In this document: one piece after another, positions 24,741 to 39,991 of the stretch
Layout of the letters: each line of letters opens with the position of its first letter
How positions within the stretch are numbered: position 1 is the stretch's first letter
DNA from: a virus
Reading direction: 5' to 3' (one strand)
IMG/VR virus record: IMGVR_UViG_3300037247_000177
Coordinates: 1 to 42,268 of that record
DNA length: 42,268 bases
Made by a program: the position numbers and the translations under genes
Notes under the pieces: model-generated
Told to the model about the DNA's origin: nothing
Database searches by the model: none
What the model saw: only the letters and a program-made list of their open reading frames with translations

Positions 24741-26956
24741 TGCCAATTGACGCAACTAATAATTTAAATCCTCAAAGACCACGAAAGAAAAAGATCAGAA
24801 CGAATCCGGGCTTCGCTGTCATACCCGGTATGCACGTTCCAGTTCCAATCAAGCTTGACAAGTGGGCTCATATTTACAACACTCCTGTCAGGAAGAAAAA
24901 AAGAAACATTGCGAATGTCACGCAGAACATTCTTGTCGAGTTCAATATTCCAACGCTTCCAGAAGTGATTATGGACTCGTGGTTTCAACAGCAACAACTT
25001 CCAAGAATAAAGAAGCGCGGCAATCCGAACTCTCACGTTGACATTGATTTCATTGAAGCGATTCAAGGCGCGAATGGAAATTGGTTCGACACTGGTGTTT
25101 TCGGCTTCACGATCACGAAAGAAAGTGATGAAGCGGCAACGTTCAGTGATTTAGACGCCTTCGACTTAACGATCACAGCGACACATATTGAAGATTTTCA
25201 ACTTGAAGACATTGAAGCTTTTGACTTCACGATTAAATATCCAGATGTTGGCAATGAAATTTTCAATAGCGGTGTTCCGGGTTCCGTTTTTGTAAACGTG
25301 ATCATCGATGGCGTAAATGAATCAAACAATATTCAAGGAGTCATTGCTATTTTTCGCGAAGATAATACAGCAACAAAATTCAAATGTATTCTTGAATTCG
25401 ATCAATTGTTGGATGTGCCCAGAAAGCCAGTAAGCTTGATCAACAAGATTATTAAGATCGGTTTTGCGGTAGCTGACATGACTGGAATTGTTTCTGATTA
25501 TATTCCAATCTTCATTGGTCGTTGTAAACATGTAGAATTCAGTGAAGATCGACAGTCGATGATTATGACTGGTTATGATTACGGCGGAGCGCATCAAACA
25601 AAAGGTGAATTTATTTCACAGAATGTGACTGATGTTTTGACTGGTACTGTTGGCGCAAGTTCAGCAGGAACAATTAATCTTGGTCAGTCTCCGGTTTGGG
25701 CTGTTGTTTGGAATGGGAACGAGGCAGTCGAAGACGGTACAGATTATTTCGTCAATACTCTCACTGGCGAGATTGTAATTCCATTTTCTTCGAGAATTCT
25801 TCAGTTTCCAAATTCATTTACATTTAATTATATGAATCCGTTTGCAAGTATGAGAGATATTATTCAAGAAATTGCATCAATAAAAGGCTGGATTGTCACT
25901 GAAGATAATGTCACGATTGCAGATTATTCGAGTACCGCAGAACATCCAGTAATAAGTCTTTCGGATGAATCCGTGATTGATGTTTGTAGAAAGTTTTTTG
26001 AACTGTCGGGCGCAAAAGTTGAAACGAATTTATTCCCGACGCTTCGTGTTTATTCTGAAGTTCAAAACGTGATCAACACACAGAACACACACGTTGTTGA
26101 CGAATCAGATATTTTTGAAAACACACTTGAGTTTGAAATTGATTTCGACGATCTCTTAAATGAGCAAACTGTTCGAAGTGTTCAAAAAGTTAATGCAAAT
26201 ATCGAGATCAGCGATCAAATACTCGCAACATTTTCTGGACAACAAGGTCTTTTGAGTCCGTTTACATTTTCTCCGCAAGGTACTAATTTTGACGCCGTTG
26301 ATCGCACGACAGCGCAAGTGTTGGTTGAAAAGAGAATTAGAAAACAAAACATTGCGAGCTTGTCGTTTTCTTCCAGCGGCAGTTTTACTTTAACTTTTGG
26401 CGGTGTCAATGATTTCTTTGAGGCAATTACCGATGCGTCTTGGTCGTTCTTCATTGACGGCGAAGACATTGTTATTCAATTAAAACATGCAATAGTTACA
26501 GCGGGTGGAAATTCTGGTACTGGAATTCAGACTTCATCATCGGTAATGGTTGCATTTCCCGCAGTGGAATATTCATTGACAGTTTCAGGCACAAAGATAA
26601 ACTATGGAGGCGGAGCGATTGAAGATGTAAAAATCGTTACCGCACAAAGGCCGGTTACTGGAATTTCTGAAACTTTAAAAGGTGACGTTTATGAAAACGC
26701 ATACATCGAAACCAATCAGCATTGTGCAAATATTTGTGACGCAATCTTACTTGAAGAGGGAAATCCTTATACTTGTCAATTTGAAATTCCTGTTTATGTG
26801 GGAAAGGATATGAACATCGGTGATCGAATAGACATAATGAAAGACGTAAATGTTTTATTTTCCGGTTTAATTAAAACTTTAAATTATACAGTCAACTTAA
26901 CAAATGGAGAGAATTCAATTTTCGCTGTTGCAAAAGGCGTTGGATTCGGAATATAA
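24740..26956 (+). CDS. Tail hub / baseplate protein, 738 aa
   Basis: Basic N-terminus (first 60 residues, Pro/Lys/Arg-rich), then two similar acidic segments (about residues 115-170, with TITKESDEA and FDFTIKYPD). A central part follows with YDYGGAHQTKGEFISQNVTDVL and MRDIIQEIASIKGWIVTEDNV; this last is the LysM-like or 'gpD/gp27 hub' type of helix-strand unit. The C-terminal FEIPVYVGKDMNIGDRIDIMKD is also typical of hub proteins. It is the largest protein here, downstream of the tape measure, and so likely organises the tail tip. Confidence 0.62.
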   Translation: MPIDATNNLNPQRPRKKKIRTNPGFAVIPGMHVPVPIKLDKWAHIYNTPVRKKKRNIANVTQNILVEFNIPTLPEVIMDSWFQQQQLPRIKKRGNPNSHVDIDFIEAIQGANGNWFDTGVFGFTITKESDEAATFSDLDAFDLTITATHIEDFQLEDIEAFDFTIKYPDVGNEIFNSGVPGSVFVNVIIDGVNESNNIQGVIAIFREDNTATKFKCILEFDQLLDVPRKPVSLINKIIKIGFAVADMTGIVSDYIPIFIGRCKHVEFSEDRQSMIMTGYDYGGAHQTKGEFISQNVTDVLTGTVGASSAGTINLGQSPVWAVVWNGNEAVEDGTDYFVNTLTGEIVIPFSSRILQFPNSFTFNYMNPFASMRDIIQEIASIKGWIVTEDNVTIADYSSTAEHPVISLSDESVIDVCRKFFELSGAKVETNLFPTLRVYSEVQNVINTQNTHVVDESDIFENTLEFEIDFDDLLNEQTVRSVQKVNANIEISDQILATFSGQQGLLSPFTFSPQGTNFDAVDRTTAQVLVEKRIRKQNIASLSFSSSGSFTLTFGGVNDFFEAITDASWSFFIDGEDIVIQLKHAIVTAGGNSGTGIQTSSSVMVAFPAVEYSLTVSGTKINYGGGAIEDVKIVTAQRPVTGISETLKGDVYENAYIETNQHCANICDAILLEEGNPYTCQFEIPVYVGKDMNIGDRIDIMKDVNVLFSGLIKTLNYTVNLTNGENSIFAVAKGVGFGI

Positions 26957-26959
26957 ATT

Positions 26960-27931
26960 ATGGCAATAGTGGCCGCATTTTCGGGAATACCATTGTTCGG
27001 GATTCCAGCTAGCTTTCAAGTGCAATTTGCAGATGAAAGCACAGGAAGCCCTGATAGTTGGTTATGGAATTTTGGTGATGGCATGTTTTCAGAAGAACAG
27101 CATCCACTGCATACCTATACTGGTGAATTTGGTGATAAATTTACAGTAAGTCTTAAAGCGTATATAATATCGGGACCGGAAATATTTCGTAATACGGTTC
27201 AAAAATTTGAAATTAAACAAAGAACTGCTGATACATTTGATAATACAGTAGAGGTATTTAGTAATTTAGGGAGTAAATCCTTTCAGACTTTTTCCAGTTC
27301 TGGCGCTTTAAAATCATGGCATTTTTTTGATGGAACTGGTTTAGATGAAGAAAATCCAACTTATAATGGCCAGGATATACAAGCAAAAGGAACAATTAGT
27401 ATACCAGCTCCAGCAGGGGGAGGGCCATCAGTTTTTATAACAAAGTCTACTTTAACTCAAGTTTCCAGTTCTTTGAGAGAAGGGACAATTACTAGCACTC
27501 TAGGTGGGAGATATGATGCTGCTGGCCCTATTAGTAATCAATTTATGTCAGATGTTACAGGTAAAAATGGATCAACAGTAGAGCTTATTCCAAATTATGT
27601 ATTTATAACTATAACACCACCGCAAGCGCCTTTTGAACAGTCGGGAATTGGTGCAAATCTACAGGTTTATGAAAGACGAACATCAAGCGAAGATAATTTT
27701 GACCAAACAACAAAAACGGATTATATTATATTTGGCACTCCTCCCATAGCGGCATTTAACGCATCACCCACCAGTGGGCCAAATCCATTAACCGTCCAAT
27801 TTGAAAACCAAAGTACTCCGGCTGTGGGCCTGCCAACTACTTACTTATGGAAAAAAAGAAAAACAGGTTCTGGTGATGCGTTCGTTGAATTCTCAACACA
27901 AGAACATCCAACTGAAATTTTTACGAAATAA
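26960..27931 (+). CDS. PKD-domain tail-tip protein / adhesin, 323 aa
   Basis: The N-terminus (about 1-80) is a PKD domain with SFQVQFADESTGSPDSWLWN, FGDG and HPLHTYT. A second, shorter PKD-like segment forms the last 60 residues (PPIAAFNASPTSGPNPLTVQ, then YLWKKRK and QEHPTEIF), where the FGDG loop is replaced. Between them is a beta-rich region of about 180 residues. PKD domains bind glycans or proteins at cell surfaces, so this is a good candidate for host binding. It lies next to the hub gene. Confidence 0.7.
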   Translation: MAIVAAFSGIPLFGIPASFQVQFADESTGSPDSWLWNFGDGMFSEEQHPLHTYTGEFGDKFTVSLKAYIISGPEIFRNTVQKFEIKQRTADTFDNTVEVFSNLGSKSFQTFSSSGALKSWHFFDGTGLDEENPTYNGQDIQAKGTISIPAPAGGGPSVFITKSTLTQVSSSLREGTITSTLGGRYDAAGPISNQFMSDVTGKNGSTVELIPNYVFITITPPQAPFEQSGIGANLQVYERRTSSEDNFDQTTKTDYIIFGTPPIAAFNASPTSGPNPLTVQFENQSTPAVGLPTTYLWKKRKTGSGDAFVEFSTQEHPTEIFTK

Positions 27932-27936
27932 ATACT

Positions 27937-28362
27937 ATGAGTACATCAAAAGATTTTATCGATTCAATAAATGAAAAAAATCGTTATGAAAACTTCAGCG
28001 AAGAGGTCAAGATTATTGCTTCAGCTCAGGCAGGGAACATGGCGATCTATACTGTCACGAATAAAAATGGAGTGACGTTCCAGAAAGTACCCGGTCAGCC
28101 GGGACTTGCAGATCGCGGCTTTATGGGATTTGTCAGTGGTGATCGAGCAAGACCGATCATGTTATCCGGCTCAGTTAAAACGACAGAATCAGAATCAACT
28201 AGTAATGAGGTCACTCAGGGAACTGGCGGTGGGACTAATTTAGGTGATCAATTTCCAGTTGATTTGACTCCCAGTGTTGCGTATGATATAGAGCTGACCG
28301 CAGACGCAGGGGCTCTTGGTGATGATACAGAAACAAAAACAGGTTTTATAATTGTTGGTTAA
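27937..28362 (+). CDS. Small virion-type protein, 141 aa
   Basis: Starts 5 bp after the adhesin gene. Mixed charge at the N-terminus, then Gly/Thr/Ser-rich loops (EVTQGTGGGTNLGDQF) and a short C-terminal strand (TGFIIVG). No family recognised. Last gene of the tail block before the small membrane proteins. Confidence 0.58.
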   Translation: MSTSKDFIDSINEKNRYENFSEEVKIIASAQAGNMAIYTVTNKNGVTFQKVPGQPGLADRGFMGFVSGDRARPIMLSGSVKTTESESTSNEVTQGTGGGTNLGDQFPVDLTPSVAYDIELTADAGALGDDTETKTGFIIVG

Positions 28363-29876: not shown

Positions 29877-30647
29877 ATGAACAGTGCAAAAATGAGAAGC
29901 AAATTAGAAAAGAAAATAAAACTTTTGGTTGATAGAAAAGCTTTGTTTGTTATTAATCATTCTGGTGGCAAAGATAGTCAGGCTATGTTTCTATACGTGA
30001 AGTCAATCGTTCCTAAAAATCAGATCTTCGTTATCCACGCCGACTTGCCCGGAGCTGACTGGCCGGGCACAACCGATCATATTATTGCGACTACGTTTGA
30101 TTATGAAAGTATGATAGTGAGAGCAAAGAAAACATTTTTTGATATGGTTAGGCATAGGGGAATGTGGCCGTCTCCAAAATATAGACAATGCACGAGTGAT
30201 TTAAAACGTGCTCCGATAGAAAAAGCGATCAGGCATTATTCAAAAGCCATTGGAAACAAACTGATTGTGGATTGTATTGGGAAAAGAGCTGAGGAAAGTC
30301 CAGCAAGAGCAAAAGAACGGATATTTGGATTTGACAGAAAAAATAGCAAGGCTGGAAGAGAGTGGTATAAGTGGCTTCCGATCCATGAATGGAAGATCGG
30401 CAAAGTATTTGCAAAGATCGCAGATGCAGGGGAACGGCCTCACTGGGCTTATTCACAGGGGATGACAAGGCTGAGTTGTTGTTTTTGCATTATGGCTAGC
30501 AAGCAAGATTTGAAAATTGCGGCGGGGTTACAATCAGTATTGTTTAAAGAATATTGTGATTTAGAAAAAGAGATTGGTCATACTCTTATTATGCCGTCGA
30601 AAAAGAACGGCAAACTGTATTTAGACGAGGTCATATCTTGTTTTTAG
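29877..30647 (+). CDS. PAPS-reductase/DndC-like PP-loop protein, 256 aa
   Basis: The PP-loop SGGKDS is at residues 29-34 and an HADLPGADWPGT segment follows at 55-65. RQCTSDLKRAPI (Cys105) and a C-terminal SCCFC (Cys201, 202, 204) are typical of phage phosphoadenosine-phosphosulfate-reductase-family proteins and of DndC. Such enzymes use ATP to activate a sulfate or nucleotide group; DndC takes part in DNA phosphorothioation. No other dnd genes are in the window, so its substrate is uncertain. Confidence 0.8.
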   Translation: MNSAKMRSKLEKKIKLLVDRKALFVINHSGGKDSQAMFLYVKSIVPKNQIFVIHADLPGADWPGTTDHIIATTFDYESMIVRAKKTFFDMVRHRGMWPSPKYRQCTSDLKRAPIEKAIRHYSKAIGNKLIVDCIGKRAEESPARAKERIFGFDRKNSKAGREWYKWLPIHEWKIGKVFAKIADAGERPHWAYSQGMTRLSCCFCIMASKQDLKIAAGLQSVLFKEYCDLEKEIGHTLIMPSKKNGKLYLDEVISCF

Positions 30648-32702: not shown

Positions 32703-33674
32703 ATGTCAAAAGATAAAAACGCAATTCAGCAATACACGGAACACATAGTCGAAAAAGATTCAGTCGTTCAAACAATGGACGTCAATGAATTGCTTTCACT
32801 CGCGGCCGTAGCTGAAGAACGAGTCAACGCGATAGTGAAGATCAGAAATACAGCGATCAAATTGACGAACGCAAACGATTGGATTGATCAAAATGGAAAG
32901 CCTTACTTGCAAGCAAGCGGCGCGGAGAAAATCGCCGGCGCGTTTGGTATCTCTTGGACTTTTGTAAATCCAGAACCGTTTTGCGAAGTCGAGGAAGATG
33001 GTCACTATATATATACATATCAAGGACTTTTCACAATGTCTAGTCGAAAGATTCAAGTCGATGGTTCGCGATCAAGTAAAGATCCATTTTTTAAGCAATA
33101 TCGGTACATCAAGAAAGCCGGTGGTGGTCATGATGAAAAAGTTGAAAAGACTATCGCAGAGAGAGACAACAAGCGTGATGTGAAAATGTCTGCCTACACG
33201 AACATGATCGGCAATGGAATTACAAGAATTCTTGGCATAAGAAATCTGACGTATGCTGATCTTGAAGAATTCGCGGGTATCAAAAAAGATCAGCTTGGCA
33301 AGGTCGAGTACAAAAAGAAGCCTCCCATCAATAAAGCGACAACGAAGTCGGAATCGAAAGAAAACAAAAACGCAAATCAATCAAGTGATGGTCAGGCAAA
33401 CACTAACGCCAGTAGAGTCAGTGATGAAGTGATGATCAAGGTTAAGAACGTCACGAAGAAAAGCGGAAAGAATGAAAGTAATGAAAAAGAGTGGACAAAA
33501 TACACAATTCACACTCCCGGTGGTTCGATGTATTCAACATTTGACAAGGGGATCGCAGAAGCGGCAGAGAAAATCAAGGATACTGACCATGAAGCTTGTG
33601 TCATTTTTGAGACATACAACAGCCAAGGCGTTGACTATCTCAACATTTGTGAAAATGGTTTTGTCGTCACTTAA
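32703..33674 (+). CDS. Putative phage recombination/ssDNA-binding protein, 323 aa
   Basis: The N-terminal 210 residues have WIDQNGKPYLQASGAEKIAG, then PFFKQYRYIKKAG and MSAYTNMIGNGITRILGIRN, which are reminiscent of Erf/Rad52-like phage annealing proteins. A Lys/Ser/Asn-rich linker (about 215-245) joins a C-terminal beta domain (about 248-323, KVKNVTKKSG and FETYNSQGVDYLNIC) that looks like an OB fold. It probably binds single-stranded DNA in replication or recombination. Family assignment is from memory and not certain. Confidence 0.52.
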   Translation: MSKDKNAIQQYTEHIVEKDSVVQTMDVNELLSLAAVAEERVNAIVKIRNTAIKLTNANDWIDQNGKPYLQASGAEKIAGAFGISWTFVNPEPFCEVEEDGHYIYTYQGLFTMSSRKIQVDGSRSSKDPFFKQYRYIKKAGGGHDEKVEKTIAERDNKRDVKMSAYTNMIGNGITRILGIRNLTYADLEEFAGIKKDQLGKVEYKKKPPINKATTKSESKENKNANQSSDGQANTNASRVSDEVMIKVKNVTKKSGKNESNEKEWTKYTIHTPGGSMYSTFDKGIAEAAEKIKDTDHEACVIFETYNSQGVDYLNICENGFVVT

Positions 33675-33847: not shown

Positions 33848-33943
33848 TTATAACAAGGGAGTAGACAGCCACCAGCAGGAGCCCCGGAATCTTTGAACAT
33901 CTAACCAACGCTTTTGCTGGTTGGCTACATCCGTTGGTTAGAT
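33848..33943 (+). repeat. attC-like site C1
   Basis: Left box TTATAAC (33848-33854), right box GTTAGAT (33937-33943). Arms AGCCACCAGCA (33867-33877) and TGCTGGTTGGCT (33915-33926) pair with one extra base in the right arm; the right arm is followed by exactly 10 nt and the right box. A nested perfect 12-bp inverted repeat (33899-33910 with 33932-33943) is also present. Confidence 0.75.
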
Positions 33944-33963
33944 ATTTTTGGGGAGATTATTGA

Positions 33964-34119
33964 ATGTGTGAAAAATGTGCTAAACACGTCGTAACTATTC
34001 TTGATGAAATGGAAAAAGGTAGAGAATTTGAAGGACTAAATAAAGATGAAAAAGAAACCCAACGACAATTAATGGGAATAAGATTAAGGGCAGATATAAG
34101 ATGTCCTAAAAAAATCTAA
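33964..34119 (+). CDS. Cassette gene: hypothetical protein, 51 aa
   Basis: TTGGGGAGATTATTGA precedes ATG. Cys2/Cys5 (CEKC) and Cys47 might bind metal; the middle is charged and helical. The stop codon TAA is the first three bases of the next left box. This is the first gene of the array; no family recognised. Confidence 0.6.
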   Translation: MCEKCAKHVVTILDEMEKGREFEGLNKDEKETQRQLMGIRLRADIRCPKKI

Positions 34120-34241
34120 CAGTCAAGCTGAGTCGCCACGTGTGGCGGAGAAAGGATTGAGATAATGAAAACAAACACAGAACAGAAAAACGATCCAAAA
34201 GCGAATGGCGAAGTGGTCGATTCTCAAGCGGTTGGTTAGGT
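34114..34241 (+). repeat. attC-like site C2
   Basis: ATCTAAC (34114-34120) and GTTAGGT (34235-34241). The arms are AGTCGCCAC (34131-34139) and GTGGTCGATTCT (34213-34224) with extra bases on the right, and the 10-nt spacer follows. The loop carries a CGCCAC/GTGGCG hairpin, an AGAAAGGA ribosome-binding site and the 24-codon ORF at 34165-34239. Confidence 0.62.
34165..34239 (+). CDS. Leader-type ORF inside site C2, 24 aa
   Basis: A ribosome-binding site AGAAAGGATTGAGATA precedes ATG. The 24-aa hydrophilic peptide ends at a TAG within the right box (GGT TAG), 8 bp before the next gene. Related loops in C3 and C9 have the same site and an open frame that runs into the gene, so this may be a leader that couples translation to the next cassette gene, or a decayed gene start. 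Confidence 0.4.
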   Translation: MKTNTEQKNDPKANGEVVDSQAVG

Positions 34242-34247
34242 AGATTT

Positions 34248-34460
34248 ATGGCATACAAATTATATAGATTATATCGGAGGCCTGCTTATTGTGATAAAAC
34301 AGTAGGTAACATTGATGGTCGTTATCTAGGCGAATGGGAAGCTACAACTGTCACATTTAAAGCCAGAACATCAAGAGAGGCCATGAGAAAAGCAGATAAA
34401 TTTTGGCAAGATGGAAACTTTGGAATGGGATCTATTACTGTGAAAAAAGAATCTACCTAA
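34248..34460 (+). CDS. Cassette gene: hypothetical protein, 70 aa
   Basis: Starts 6 bp after the GTTAGGT box, whose AGGT may serve as part of the ribosome-binding site, with the leader ORF stopping just upstream. Basic, with an N-terminal Tyr/Arg-rich strand and a FKARTSREAMRKADKFWQDG helix typical of small DNA-binding or adaptor folds. Stop TAA overlaps the C3 box. No family recognised. Confidence 0.6.
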   Translation: MAYKLYRLYRRPAYCDKTVGNIDGRYLGEWEATTVTFKARTSREAMRKADKFWQDGNFGMGSITVKKEST

Positions 34461-34581
34461 CTGCGTAACTGAGCCACCCCGTGTGGCAGAAAGGATATTA
34501 AATATGGGCGGATATGAAAGAGAGCTAGGCAGCGATCAAATCGGACATGACAAAGGGGTTAGCTCCAGTGATTTGTTAGAT
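34455..34581 (+). repeat. attC-like site C3
   Basis: ACCTAAC (34455-34461) and GTTAGAT (34575-34581). Arms AGCCACCCC (34472-34480) and GGGGTTAGCT (34555-34564) pair with one extra base on the right, then 10 nt. The loop holds GTGTGGCAGAAAGGATATT, which recurs in C9, and the start codon at 34504. Confidence 0.72.
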
Positions 34582-34740
34582 GCTATACCAGAGTATATTG
34601 AAGCAAAGATTAATGATCAAATATGGGCGCATCTAGACATGTATCACGAAATGGGAACATTGGAAGAAGATATAGATAAGAATGGCCATATAATAAAAAA
34701 CTTTGAAAGAGATTTGCATTATTTAAAAAAGAGCCTCTAA
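34504..34740 (+). CDS. Cassette gene: hypothetical protein with site-encoded N-terminus, 78 aa
   Basis: I choose ATG 34504 (AGAAAGGA 9 nt upstream) over the GTG at 34483. The first 24 codons lie inside site C3, and the frame runs through GTTAGAT (TTG TTA GAT). Acidic, helical C-terminal half. Stop TAA overlaps the C4 box. Function unknown. Confidence 0.6.
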   Translation: MGGYERELGSDQIGHDKGVSSSDLLDAIPEYIEAKINDQIWAHLDMYHEMGTLEEDIDKNGHIIKNFERDLHYLKKSL

Positions 34741-34816
34741 CAGGTCATGGTGAGCCATCGTACATGGCTTACGAACAGTAAATGACACTACGGTTGGCTC
34801 TAGTGGTTTGTTAGAT
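34735..34816 (+). repeat. attC-like site C4 (most canonical)
   Basis: CTCTAAC (34735-34741) and GTTAGAT (34810-34816), 82 bp overall. AGCCATCGTA and TACGGTTGGCT pair with one extra base and one mismatch; spacers are 11 nt on the left and 10 nt on the right, as in the aadA-type attC. The small loop has no start codon. Confidence 0.78.
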
Positions 34817-34835
34817 ATCTTTTATGGAGAATACA

Positions 34836-35030
34836 ATGGAAATACTTTGTGAATATGGAGCCTCGACATACTATTTATTTGATGATGGTTCGATTAGGTG
34901 TGGTATAAATCCAGAAACATCAAGAATAGTATATACGAACACCCCAATCCCTTCCGGTTATCGTGAATTTATGCCAACTGATAAGTTGTTTAAGGCAATG
35001 AAGGAAAAGGGATTAATAAAAGATATCTAA
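34836..35030 (+). CDS. Cassette gene: hypothetical protein, 64 aa
   Basis: ATG 34836 has ATGGAGAATACA upstream; the ATG at 34824 is part of that site. Mixed alpha/beta protein with YLFDDGSIRCGINPET and an FMPTDKLFKAMKEKG helix. Stop TAA overlaps the C5 box. Not recognised. Confidence 0.6.
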   Translation: MEILCEYGASTYYLFDDGSIRCGINPETSRIVYTNTPIPSGYREFMPTDKLFKAMKEKGLIKDI

Positions 35031-35151
35031 CTGACGGAGCTAAGGCACCCCGGATGGCAAGGAGACAATAAAATGAGTGAGATAAACAAAGAGAGTAAGA
35101 CTACAGAAACGCCCAATGATGAAGGGGTTGATCTTCAGCGTGTGGTTATGC
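35025..35151 (+). repeat. attC-like site C5
   Basis: ATCTAAC (35025-35031) and GTTATGC (35145-35151). The right box differs from the consensus but is the form found in Vibrio VCR-type sites. Arms AGGCACCCC and GGGGTTGATCT pair with extra bases on the right, then 10 nt. The loop holds AAGGAGACAATAAA and ATG 35073. Confidence 0.6.
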
Positions 35152-35306
35152 CTGTTGCTTGTGTCATGTGCGGTATCGAAATAGACCAAAGCGTATGGCC
35201 TAAGTATATGTTTGATCCTCAGCTAGAACAACCTCTTTGTTTTGATTGTTGGGAAATTGAATATGAAAGAGCCAGGGAAGATAATGAGTATGATGAAGAG
35301 GCATAA
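35073..35306 (+). CDS. Cassette gene: CxxC zinc-ribbon-like protein, 77 aa
   Basis: Starts in the C5 loop; the first 24 codons are site sequence and the frame reads GTT ATG through the box, so a second in-frame start (35148) exists. The body has CVMCG and CFDCW, two CxxC pairs about 20 residues apart, a zinc-ribbon or TraR/DksA-like pattern, and an acidic tail. Stop TAA overlaps the half-site at 35301. Confidence 0.62.
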   Translation: MSEINKESKTTETPNDEGVDLQRVVMPVACVMCGIEIDQSVWPKYMFDPQLEQPLCFDCWEIEYERAREDNEYDEEA

Positions 35307-35322
35307 CAAGGGAGTAGACAGC
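35301..35322 (+). repeat. attC-like half-site H1
   Basis: GCATAAC plus the left arm start. TAACAAGGGAGTAGACAGC (35304-35322) is identical to C1 (33851-33869), but the sequence then diverges and no right arm or box follows. Probably a deleted site. Confidence 0.6.
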
Positions 35323-35365
35323 TTTATAGCGGCCTAATCCTGATATTAGAGGGGAAATACGACAA

Positions 35366-35416
35366 ATGACAACTTTCCAAAACTATTTCTTGCATAATAG
35401 ACATACCTTTCTTTAA
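35366..35416 (+). CDS. Possible micro-ORF, 16 aa
   Basis: AGAGGGGAAATACGACAA precedes an ATG that opens a 16-codon frame. It lies between H1 and the next gene and may be a remnant left by the deletion. Weak evidence. Confidence 0.22.
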   Translation: MTTFQNYFLHNRHTFL

Positions 35417-35436
35417 AATTATAAAGGGGAGATAAT

Positions 35437-35538
35437 ATGAATATGTTGCAGTGGATTCTGATAGGGTTGATTGGTTGGGTTTTTATTATATGTGCTATGT
35501 TGGCTTGTTTTGGGAATCCAAAAGATGAAGAAATGTAA
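35437..35538 (+). CDS. Small membrane protein in the array, 33 aa
   Basis: AAAGGGGAGATAAT precedes ATG. Nearly the whole protein is one hydrophobic helix (QWILIGLIGWVFIICAML, about residues 5-22) with a short charged end. It overlaps the next gene by 14 bp in another frame. A phage micro-membrane protein; role unknown. Confidence 0.5.
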   Translation: MNMLQWILIGLIGWVFIICAMLACFGNPKDEEM

Positions 35539-35980
35539 AATCCATGGTTGTAAAAAGAAATATTATGCCAGGCTTTATTGCCGTAAACACTACCATTCAA
35601 AGTTTTACAAATTATATTATTTAGAAACATCCAAGAATTATTATCAGAAAAACAAAGAGAAGTTGATTGTTTATTCACGTGAATATTATAAAAATAATAA
35701 AGAGAAAATAAAGGAACTGAATAATAGGTATAACGCTACTCATCAAAAACAAATATTGGCATATCGAAAGAGGACCAGGAAAAGAGCTGTTGAACGAGCA
35801 AAGATTCGTTATAAAGAAAATACGGAGAAATGCTTATTATATTCCCAGCGATATTATGAGAAAAATAAGGAATCTGTTAAAATACGCAAGGCTAAATGGT
35901 ACCGGGACAATAAAAAACGGTTAAGCAAGCAACATAAAAAGAATTATAGGAAAAGAAAAATGGATAACGGTTTCAGGTAA
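35525..35980 (+). CDS. Cassette gene: zinc-motif protein with Lys/Tyr repeats, 151 aa
   Basis: I choose ATG 35525. The N-terminus CKIHGCKKKYYARLYCRKHY has C-x4-C-x8-C-x2-H, a zinc knuckle seen in phage HNH and regulatory proteins. The rest is about four repeats of a YYxKNKEK-type unit, very basic and helical, suggesting nucleic-acid binding. There is no HNH catalytic core. Its last codons run through site C6, so TAAC there is read as GAT AAC. Confidence 0.6.
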   Translation: MKKCKIHGCKKKYYARLYCRKHYHSKFYKLYYLETSKNYYQKNKEKLIVYSREYYKNNKEKIKELNNRYNATHQKQILAYRKRTRKRAVERAKIRYKENTEKCLLYSQRYYEKNKESVKIRKAKWYRDNKKRLSKQHKKNYRKRKMDNGFR

Positions 35981-36022
35981 GCGGCGAATGCTTTTTTCGT
36001 CCGCTCCAGTAGGTTGTTAGAT
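35962..36022 (+). repeat. attC-like site C6 (short)
   Basis: GGATAAC (35962-35968) and GTTAGAT (36016-36022), only 61 bp. Arms AGCGGCGAA (35980-35988) and TTCGTCCGCT (35996-36005) pair with one extra base on the right. Spacers 11 and 10 nt. In length and layout this is the closest to class 1 integron attC. Confidence 0.75.
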
Positions 36023-36045
36023 TTTGCTTTATGGAGATATTGAAT

Positions 36046-36237
36046 ATGGGAAAAGATGAACGCCATTGGATTACTGAAGGCTATAAACAAAGAATGACCA
36101 TGAAAGAATGGCAAAAGATTCTTCTTGATTATGATGATAGTGTAATTTTTCATGGCAAACTTAGAAAATTAAAAGTCAGGAAATTAGGGGCTGGCGTAGT
36201 AGAGGTATTTAAAGAACCATTACAAAAGCAAATCTAA
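36046..36237 (+). CDS. Cassette gene: hypothetical protein, 63 aa
   Basis: ATG 36046 is preceded by GGAGATATTGAAT; the ATG at 36031 is inside the site. Basic protein with an RMTMKEWQKILLDYDDSVIF helix-strand and a basic C-terminal half. Stop TAA overlaps the C7 box. Not recognised. Confidence 0.58.
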   Translation: MGKDERHWITEGYKQRMTMKEWQKILLDYDDSVIFHGKLRKLKVRKLGAGVVEVFKEPLQKQI

Positions 36238-36367
36238 CAGTTCTGAATCAGCCACTCAAAAAGAGTAGTAAGGCAAGACTTCGCAAGAGAAAGAGATGAT
36301 TTGTATGCCTAAGTATCTCCCCTATTTGCGACTGGCTTTTTGGGTTAGCTGTATGAGTTTGTTAGGT
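36232..36367 (+). repeat. attC-like site C7
   Basis: ATCTAAC (36232-36238) and GTTAGGT (36361-36367). Arms AGCCACTCAAAAAG (36250-36263) and CTTTTTGGGTTAGCT (36336-36350) form a long stem, one extra base on the right, then 10 nt. The loop has no start codon in use. Confidence 0.75.
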
Positions 36368-36386
36368 GTTTTTGCGAGGAATATAA

Positions 36387-36587
36387 ATGGCTAAAGGATA
36401 TATAATTAAATTTAGAAAGTTGAAAAAAAATTGCGTGCATAATAGGCTTCGATGGTTAGGTTGTTCTTTTAGAGGAAAATTAAAACTACCCAAGCATTGG
36501 CCTGAATGTACAGAAAAAAGGTGTCCTATCTTGAAAACATGTGAACTTGGGCCGACACCGACTGTATTTACTATGTATGGACAATAG
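36387..36587 (+). CDS. Cassette gene: Cys-containing basic protein, 66 aa
   Basis: TTGCGAGGAATATAA precedes ATG. Basic, with Cys at about 16, 26, 41, 46 and 52 (for example PECTEKRCPILKTCELG), which could bind zinc. The stop is TAG, two bases before the C8 TAAC. No family recognised. Confidence 0.58.
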   Translation: MAKGYIIKFRKLKKNCVHNRLRWLGCSFRGKLKLPKHWPECTEKRCPILKTCELGPTPTVFTMYGQ

Positions 36588-36693
36588 TTAACGGTCAAAA
36601 TTAACCTGCGAGAGAAAAAGAGGAGATTATGAAAAGCAATGAAAACCTAAAAACAAGTGCAATTTCGAGTCAGCGTTCAAAGATTTGTTATGC
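36586..36693 (+). repeat. attC-like site C8
   Basis: AGTTAAC (36586-36592) and GTTATGC (36687-36693). The arms pair only weakly (ACCTG with CAGCGT, one extra base). The 10-nt right spacer is kept. The loop holds AGAGGAGATT and ATG 36629. Confidence 0.5.
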
Positions 36694-36850
36694 TTTTTTC
36701 AAAGATAAATTATGGTGTGACTTAGAAGACGATAAAGAAAAAATGTTGTTTTTGAAAAGTGGCAGAGCTGTACAAACTGGAATAGTTGCTCCTGGGTTGA
36801 TAGATGAATTAGTAGAAGTATATAAGTTTAGAAGTGAAAATAAGGCATAA
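36629..36850 (+). CDS. Cassette gene: hypothetical protein with site-encoded N-terminus, 73 aa
   Basis: Starts in the C8 loop; about 19 codons precede the right box, through which the frame reads TGT TAT GCT. The body is FFKDKLWCDLEDDKEKM then FLKSGRAVQTGIVAPG and a helical end. Stop TAA overlaps the C9 box. Function unknown. Confidence 0.6.
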   Translation: MKSNENLKTSAISSQRSKICYAFFKDKLWCDLEDDKEKMLFLKSGRAVQTGIVAPGLIDELVEVYKFRSENKA

Positions 36851-36972
36851 CAGTCAATCTGAGCCGCCCCGTGTGGCAGAAAGGATATTGAAATGTATGA
36901 AGCGGAAAAGGAAGCCCTTGGTATAAAAACCACGAAAGATAAAGGGGTCGGTTCTCCAGCGGTTGGTTCGGA
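36845..36972 (+). repeat. attC-like site C9
   Basis: GCATAAC (36845-36851) and a degenerate right box GTTCGGA (36966-36972). Arms AGCCGCCCC and GGGGTCGGTTCT pair with extra bases on the right, then 10 nt. The loop shares GTGTGGCAGAAAGGATATT with C3. Confidence 0.6.
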
Positions 36973-37138
36973 CTCTTGCATACATATTTTAAGGAATCCG
37001 TATGGTTTCAGCAAGGCTGAAATTAAGGCCGCACAACTCAAAGCTTGTAATGAAATTGAACTTTGGAAAGAAGCGTATTTAAACATGAAAGAATGGGCGA
37101 AAGAAAACGGCGTAGATATCATGGCTTACTATCCGTAG
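36893..37138 (+). CDS. Cassette gene: hypothetical protein with site-encoded N-terminus, 81 aa
   Basis: AGAAAGGATATTGAA before ATG, inside the C9 loop; 24 codons lie before the right box, then the frame continues. The body has NPYGFSKAEIKAAQLKACNE and a helical tail with Trp. Stop TAG, three bases before the ACCGAAC box. Not recognised. Confidence 0.6.
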   Translation: MYEAEKEALGIKTTKDKGVGSPAVGSDSCIHILRNPYGFSKAEIKAAQLKACNEIELWKEAYLNMKEWAKENGVDIMAYYP

Positions 37139-37244
37139 ACCGAACTGTCATAGGTGACTTGCGAGGGAGAAAAGAATGAGTGATGCAAACAAAAAAGATA
37201 CAGAAATCACATGCAATTCGAGTCAGGTGGATAAGTTGTTAGAT
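37139..37244 (+). repeat. attC-like site C10
   Basis: Left box ACCGAAC (37139-37145, one mismatch to RYYYAAC), right box GTTAGAT (37238-37244). Arm pairing is weak. The loop resembles that of C8 (GCGAGxGAGAAAA then a start codon). Confidence 0.5.
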
Positions 37245-37406
37245 TTCTTATCTACATTTCAAGATAAGTTTAGTTCCGGCATATTACGTCTACATAGGGA
37301 CGGAAGCGGTTCTTTTTATAATGCTAGTTATACTGGGATTAATGTAAAAAAAGAGATTGAATTTAAAAATGCTAAAGAACTTAAAAAATTAATAAATAAA
37401 ATCTAA
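37176..37406 (+). CDS. Cassette gene: hypothetical protein with site-encoded N-terminus, 76 aa
   Basis: Starts in the C10 loop after GGGAGAAAAGA; about 20 codons are site-encoded, then LLDFLSTFQDKFSSGILRLH and a Lys-rich helical end. Stop TAA is in the half-site box H2. Last gene of the array. Function unknown. Confidence 0.6.
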   Translation: MSDANKKDTEITCNSSQVDKLLDFLSTFQDKFSSGILRLHRDGSGSFYNASYTGINVKKEIEFKNAKELKKLINKI

Positions 37407-37430
37407 CAGGTCTGAATCAGCCGCCAGTCA
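37401..37430 (+). repeat. attC-like half-site H2 (array end)
   Basis: ATCTAAC, 11 nt, then AGCCGCCAGTC (37419-37429). No matching right arm or GTTRRRY box follows before the nuclease gene, so this is a truncated site that marks the right end of the array. Confidence 0.6.
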
Positions 37431-37461
37431 GCACGTCTATTAAGGTAATAAGTAGAAAATC

Positions 37462-39208: not shown

Positions 39209-39991
39209 ATGGAAATTAGCATAAATAAACTTGAATCGAAAGTGACAAGATTTTCAAAAGTGAACGCTTATTTTTCGGCATGGTGTTCACAACTCGTTTA
39301 TGAAGATCCAAGCGTCGTTCAATTGGCTTTGCGTGAAAAACATTACGACACAATTGAAATATATGACGTGCAAGACACGCAGGCGTTTGTTGCAAGCAAT
39401 GAAGATTCGATGATCGTTTCATTTCGCGGCACTTCAACTCTTAAAGATGCAATGACTGACATCAACGTTGATCTTGTTGATGGTGTTGGTGGTCGAGTGC
39501 ATGAAGGATTTAACATTGCATTGAATTACATCTGGAGAGATTTATACAAATTGATTTTAGCGAACAGAGCCAAAAGAAGTTTATGGCTTACTGGTCATTC
39601 ACTCGGTGCAGGTCTCGCATGTCTCGCGACTGCAAAACTGGTACAAGAGAAAGACGAACCAGTCAATGGTCTTTACACGTTTGGACAGCCTCGAACTGGC
39701 GACAGGCACTTCGCAAAGAATTTCAACGCGACTTTTGGTGACAAGACGTTTCGATTTGTCAACAACAATGACATCGTTACAAGAACACCGTTCAGATCGA
39801 TGGGATATTCCCACGTCGGTCAATTCAAATACTTTGATGAAAATGGAAGATTGCGTGATGACATGAATTGGTGGGAAAAGTTGCTTGACAGAATTCACGG
39901 CAGAATTGATGATCTGTTCGAACCTGGCAGCGACGGATTCAAAGATCACGCTATCAGCGAATATGTCAGTCAAACAGGAAGGATGATTTGA
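39209..39991 (+). CDS. Class 3 lipase (alpha/beta hydrolase), 260 aa
   Basis: GHSLG with nucleophile Ser131, SFRGT at 71-75 near the oxyanion hole, NNNDIVTRTP with Asp188, a YSHVG strand and the DHAISEY end with His247 reproduce the Ser-Asp-His triad of fungal-type (class 3) lipases. No signal peptide is visible. It probably hydrolyses ester bonds in lipids. In a phage without a recognised endolysin it could help to lyse or enter the host, or modify lipids; the context (replication block) does not prove either. Confidence 0.85.
   Translation: MEISINKLESKVTRFSKVNAYFSAWCSQLVYEDPSVVQLALREKHYDTIEIYDVQDTQAFVASNEDSMIVSFRGTSTLKDAMTDINVDLVDGVGGRVHEGFNIALNYIWRDLYKLILANRAKRSLWLTGHSLGAGLACLATAKLVQEKDEPVNGLYTFGQPRTGDRHFAKNFNATFGDKTFRFVNNNDIVTRTPFRSMGYSHVGQFKYFDENGRLRDDMNWWEKLLDRIHGRIDDLFEPGSDGFKDHAISEYVSQTGRMI

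Follow-up and report, generated by a model that had tools for sequence, protein, structure and literature searches.

A phage-borne attC cassette array with recombination sites on the strand opposite to its genes, and similar arrays in other viral contigs

Clusters of attC sites lacking an integrase (CALINs) are already known from phages: Qi et al. 2023 (PMC9892861) describe 17 phage CALINs, some of them in virulent phages, and report that IntI1 recombined five of the six sites tested. In integrons, the choice of attC strand is directed by extrahelical bases (Bouvier 2009, PMC2727003), and a recombination site can supply the downstream gene with its Shine-Dalgarno (SD) sequence and start codon, as in attI1 ORF-11 and translation-coupled or fused cassettes (reviewed in PMC8876359). 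Here we describe an attC array in a linear virus record of 42,268 bases (IMG/VR IMGVR_UViG_3300037247_000177), referred to as the window. A first-pass annotation had recognised in it an integrase-less phage attC cassette array, which is confirmed here, in a tailed phage, by the attC boxes and cassette ends and by the lack of a TIGR02249 (integron integrase) match, and had stated that no example was known in lytic phages, which the published phage CALINs, with virulent phages and IntI1-active sites among them, contradict. As attC arrays in phages are published, the new part is the polarity: in the window the attCs lie on the minus strand and every gene on the plus strand.

The array (33848-37407) comprises nine complete attC-like sites, one site split by an insert of about 0.7 kb and one terminal half-site, with 11 left boxes and 10 right boxes interleaved with short plus-strand open reading frames (ORFs). 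The sites carry RYYYAAC ... GTTRRRY boxes (three or four boxes being degenerate); their L boxes lie some 9 nt inward of the R boxes, one arm has extrahelical bases, and the ends of each cassette are complementary. The right boxes are GTTAGAT (five), GTTAGGT (two), GTTATGC (two) and a degenerate GTTCGGA (one), the same ten as counted in the first-pass annotation. Its tally of ten sites and two truncated half-sites stands for the nine complete sites and for the terminal half at 37401; the tenth right box, at position 36016, forms one split site together with the left box at 35301. The spacer, described as fixed at 10 nt, is mostly 9-10 nt between AAC and L box, and 12-13 nt in two sites. With more than two attCs and no intI nearby on the contig, the locus is a real attC cassette array and hence a phage CALIN, a known kind; judged on intI alone, it is not a complete integron (intI, attI, Pc), there being no TIGR02249 match in the contig. 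The sites are:

33848..33943, minus strand: attC A1 (TTATAAC ... GTTAGAT), placed by boxes and arm alignment; DNA fold z -2.5
34114..34241, minus strand: attC A2 (ATCTAAC ... GTTAGGT), holding the SD and ATG of a leader ORF (34165-34239)
34455..34581, minus strand: attC A3 (ACCTAAC ... GTTAGAT), next gene's start codon inside
34735..34816, minus strand: attC A4 (CTCTAAC ... GTTAGAT); fold z -2.4
35025..35151, minus strand: attC A5 (ATCTAAC ... GTTATGC), next gene's start codon inside
35301..36022, minus strand: attC A6, split into a left half 35301-35330 (GCATAAC...) and a right half 35990-36022 (...GTTAGAT), separated by a stretch that holds two small ORFs
36232..36367, minus strand: attC A7 (ATCTAAC ... 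GTTAGGT); fold z -2.1
36586..36693, minus strand: attC A8 (AGTTAAC ... GTTATGC), next gene's start inside; three extrahelical bases, Vibrio-like spacing
36845..36972, minus strand: attC A9 (GCATAAC ... GTTCGGA), next gene's start codon inside
37139..37244, minus strand: attC A10 (ACCGAAC ... GTTAGAT), next gene's start codon inside
37401..37432, minus strand: terminal half-site A11 (ATCTAACAGGTCTGAATCAGCCGCC), which has lost its right arm at the exonuclease-gene junction

The extrahelical bases lie on the right arm in all nine complete window sites, versus the left arm in 18 of 20 reference attCs. A position matrix of the reference spacers favours the true strand for each of the 20 references and the minus strand for each of the nine window sites; one reference, a TJE1 site (1462-1519), was reassigned to plus by arm alignment, so that the references are not fully independent of this test. 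Taken together, the right-arm extra bases and the spacer preference place the attCs on the minus strand. Codon scores are positive for most array ORFs and leaders and negative for all minus-strand ORFs tested, which places the array genes on the plus strand, and eight of the ten inter-site intervals are antisense to attC, none being sense. The canonical polarity implied in the first-pass annotation is therefore not the one found: genes are not sense to the attCs, the attC does not stand 3' of its gene, and the mobile unit is an attC followed by its downstream gene, the crossover being predicted immediately behind the stop codon.

The R boxes are nearly symmetric, so the box sequences alone would permit attCs on the plus strand, and the gene ends abut the left boxes as in canonical cassettes. 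A canonical array, in which each unit would be a gene with a 3' attC and the attC-internal starts accidental border fusions, is nevertheless quite unlikely, as the extrahelical bases and the spacer sequence indicate the minus strand in every complete site. A reverse covariance model (R2), built from the window sites read on the minus strand, points the same way: run on 220 kb of control DNA, it gave 13 matches (E 0.05 and above), mostly known attCs, which topped the ranking and were all on the expected strand. Under canonical polarity, moreover, five ORFs would have to span a cassette border, in three different frames.

We consider it probable that the window carries a phage-borne array of about ten small cassettes in a reversed format, with the attC at the 5' end of the gene on the opposite strand. 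The box, spacer and extrahelical-base anatomy, the complementary ends, the polarity, the coding signal, the contig without an intI match and the polarity enrichment in viral arrays support this format directly. The attC would act as the gene's 5' leader and, in at least five cassettes, as the source of its ribosome-binding site and start codon. The recombining single strand is predicted to be the coding (plus) strand, with cleavage at 5'-RYYYAA/C directly after the stop codon, and the unit would move as attC-leader-ORF-stop, so that each gene would keep its own translation start whatever the order. An integron integrase from the host or another element would perform the recombination, and phage transcription would express the cassette row. 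Cassette capture via a host integrase is plausible; recombination activity, the source of the integrase and a benefit of insulated translation are what we infer. The units measure about 260-350 bp, with one of 930 bp, as follows:

33854..34119, plus strand: cassette K1, attC A1 and gene 33964-34119 (51 amino acids, aa); end complementarity 33937/34120; codon score
34120..34460, plus strand: cassette K2, attC A2, leader 34165-34239 and gene 34248-34460 (70 aa); ends 10/10
34461..34740, plus strand: cassette K3, attC A3 and gene 34504-34740 (78 aa, attC-internal start); ends 9/10; codon score
34741..35030, plus strand: cassette K4, attC A4 and gene 34824-35030 (68 aa); ends 10/10
35031..35306, plus strand: cassette K5, attC A5 and gene 35073-35306 (77 aa, Cys-rich, attC-internal start); ends 9/10
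35307..36237, plus strand: cassette K6, split attC A6, ORFs 35437-35538 and 35534-35980 (weak HNH, E 0.005) and gene 36046-36237
36238..36591, plus strand: cassette K7, attC A7 and gene 36387-36587 (66 aa); ends poorly matched
36592..36850, plus strand: cassette K8, attC A8 and gene 36629-36850 (73 aa, attC-internal start); end match, codon score
36851..37144, plus strand: cassette K9, attC A9 and gene 36893-37138 (81 aa, attC-internal start); ends GTTCGGAC / GACCGAAC; codon score
37145..37406, plus strand: cassette K10, attC A10 and gene 37176-37406 (76 aa, attC-internal start); end match, codon score

In K3, K5, K8, K9 and K10 the attC contains the start of the ORF, preceded by a purine-rich ribosome-binding site, and the ORF reads through the right box. 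Canonical polarity would turn these into fusions across cassette borders; with the polarity observed they are ordinary genes within one unit. An early idea, that frames crossing R' break upon shuffling, was abandoned once the polarity had been established.

In most cassettes the first ten bases are complementary to the last ten (10/10 in K2 and K4, 9/10 in K3 and K5). Pairs of GTT plus 7 nt and the reverse complement of 7 nt plus AAC, 140-260 bp apart and matching at 6 or more of 7 positions, occur eight times in the 3.6 kb array versus 0.17 expected (500 shuffles, maximum two), and twice in the other 38.6 kb of the window. Pairing of each cassette with its own end gives 53 matches, versus a mean of 32.6 for permuted ends (p about 1e-5); two of the cassette ends were placed a few bases off in this permutation, which can only weaken the test. 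Such paired ends are what circular cassettes with attC ends should show, and are thus a signature of excisable cassettes. The attC-like linkers might instead be shared junctions exchanged by phage homologous or annealing recombination rather than by an integron integrase, a view that an exonuclease gene beside the window array, and RecE/Bet or Erf near several other viral arrays, would favour. We regard this as unlikely: the sites differ from one another, yet the two ends of each cassette co-vary, which is to be expected from site-specific excision and not from homologous exchange, and the conserved extrahelical bases serve IntI binding.

The reversed format was then compared with other arrays. 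A class-1-like attC arm pattern yielded 60 viral loci, among which many arrays were found by R1, a small home-made covariance model trained on established attCs of class 1, Vibrio and TJE1 origin. Comparison by ORF length only was ambiguous (27 sense, 37 antisense, 37 unclear), and codon scores trained per contig were therefore used instead. In the viral and phage set, which includes the window and phage MW202573, 60 of the 68 callable cassettes are antisense and eight sense; by contig, 19 are reversed, five canonical and one tied (p 0.007). The phage set was assembled by hand, and isolate-genome contigs and two contigs with one sense and one antisense cassette (phage H101 and L104) were excluded. 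The viral identity of several reversed contigs is backed by genes for DNA polymerase and helicase, terminase, baseplate, tail, RecE/Bet or Erf. By the same codon method, 62 of 63 cassettes in bacterial and plasmid integrons are canonical: 25 sense and no antisense in six chromosomal integrons with intI, 17 sense and no antisense in bacterial loci found by the same DNA pattern (leaving aside one antisense contig that is listed as viral in IMG/VR too), and 20 sense and one antisense in class 1 plasmids, a Vibrio prophage integron and one isolate contig; bacterial CALINs, from genomes without any intI, did not form a separate class in these controls. Phage MW202573 is an independent second example, its four attCs being on the minus strand and its genes on the plus strand. 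On this sequence-based comparison, the reversed 5'-attC format seems typical of phages.

The terminal half-site, the split site and the contig without an integrase could suggest that the phage acquired a cassette array from a bacterial chromosome, of which only a defunct remnant is left. This is very unlikely, given that the bacterial arrays checked are canonical and the window array is reversed, that the ORFs are intact with phage-like codon use, and that the cassette ends still match.

Several observations weigh against the reversed array as we read it. R1, which recovers known attC sites well and is weak on long loops, gave no significant full-length match in the window (best array-site E about 0.7 window-wide), so that with this small model the covariance-model check proposed for 33.8-37.5 kb gave no significant score, and its training set included one TJE1 site in the wrong orientation; the window sites have long loops and a differing spacer sequence. 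DNA folding beats shuffles in just three of nine sites (z -2.5, -2.4 and -2.1 for A1, A4 and A7), the ends of K7 pair poorly, and on the strand presumed to be the bottom one the window sites most often have C as their first extrahelical base, versus the conserved G described (PMC2727003). The array is absent from the exonuclease junction of L008, the nearest relative and the only one spanning the region (exonuclease about 74% identical); the proposed check of related phages thus yielded a junction without the array, and no cassette gain or loss. A search of genome contigs with the large terminase subunit (TerL) was uninformative as to host (best identity 37%); neither a host nor an integrase was found. 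Cassettes within a contig are not independent, and the contig-level p value is the one to rely on.

An Rfam scan of the window found nothing. A lax box-and-arm scanner was dropped, its noise being too high to discriminate, and aligning attCs over their full length with MAFFT put the L' arm in the wrong place, so that arms were modelled without loops. The window attC motifs had no exact match in viral contigs. The cassette proteins had no Pfam match and only weak PHROG matches; tblastn of ten of them against phages and plasmids gave no match, and one searched in viral contigs had no relative there. Within attC A1, a second, perfect inverted repeat (ATCTAACCAACG...CGTTGGTTAGAT, 33899-33943) is built from the same box sequence. 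The insert of about 0.7 kb in the split attC (35301-36022) holds two ORFs, one hydrophobic (33 aa) and one rich in Lys and Tyr (148 aa); the latter weakly resembles HNH endonucleases (E 0.005) and might be a homing gene that has entered an attC loop.

The window encodes terminase subunits, a portal, a head protease, and major head, tape measure and major tail proteins, together with a DnaD/DnaC-like replication pair, an exonuclease, a DNA methyltransferase and a PAPS (3'-phosphoadenosine 5'-phosphosulfate) reductase. No phage integrase or repressor was found among the window proteins searched, which represent part of the ORFs of a linear, possibly incomplete contig; the label lytic-type given to the phage earlier thus goes too far. 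PAPS reductase and class 3 lipase genes lie at 29877-30647 and 39209-39991. Recombination genes (RecE, Bet, Erf, exonuclease) are found near several phage attC arrays (L089, L090, L078 and the window at 32.7-38.1 kb). The array is flanked by:

32703..33674, plus strand: left flank gene (323 aa) without PHROG match; on inspection by eye, its C-terminal portion looks similar to the end of the exonuclease-adjacent ORF in L008
37462..38070, plus strand: right flank gene, phage exonuclease (phrog_298, E 9e-14; 74% identity with L008)

Among the other arrays, a 4.5 kb viral contig (L071, 1-4484) carries about ten consecutive attC sites. One IMG/VR viral contig (L055) is also present in a bacterial species genome (G259:C36, L166), and the only cassette callable in it is reversed, in contrast to the remaining bacterial loci.

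On balance, we lean towards the view that phages keep a separate pool of reversed cassettes, with a 5' attC, often including the start codon, and a recombining coding strand, as self-contained units that would be shuffled between phages by host integrases. Should the reversal of phage cassettes be systematic, these would be more than bacterial cassettes that phages have captured. At a bacterial attI their insertion would be backwards, and the same would hold for bacterial cassettes entering a phage array, so that the two pools would be partly isolated, which would account for the tiny unknown genes in phage arrays. Such a format would open a direct way to study cassette formation and the importance of strand choice through extrahelical bases, as well as a sequence rule to spot phage-derived cassettes in integrons and metagenomes.

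The array resembles the phage CALINs that Qi et al. describe (TJE1, P12002L, Pseudoalteromonas phage H101 and MW202573) as integrase-less attC arrays, with several IntI1-active sites; the main text of that paper gives gene direction without gene-to-attC polarity, and no report of reversed phage cassettes was found in the literature searched, which excluded subscription papers. By the present analysis MW202573 shares the reversed polarity of the window; one of its ORFs, with a methyltransferase-like DACCGGR motif, is annotated with a later start, and a TTG inside attC 2619-2703, behind AAAGGAG, is also possible. TJE1 differs in having its sites on the gene strand, and H101 is mixed: its cassettes at 25900-28000 (L051) vary in gene direction, and an unannotated plus-strand ORF (about 27468-27713) overlaps an annotated minus-strand gene. 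With class 1 and Vibrio arrays the window shares R boxes, a spacer of roughly 9 nt, L boxes with extrahelical bases and complementary cassette ends; unlike the window, those arrays have genes sense to attC, attC 3' of the gene, mostly larger cassettes, and an integrase with attI. In attI1 ORF-11 and fused cassettes the start codon lies in attI or in a neighbouring cassette, whereas in the window it lies in an attC that would travel with its gene.

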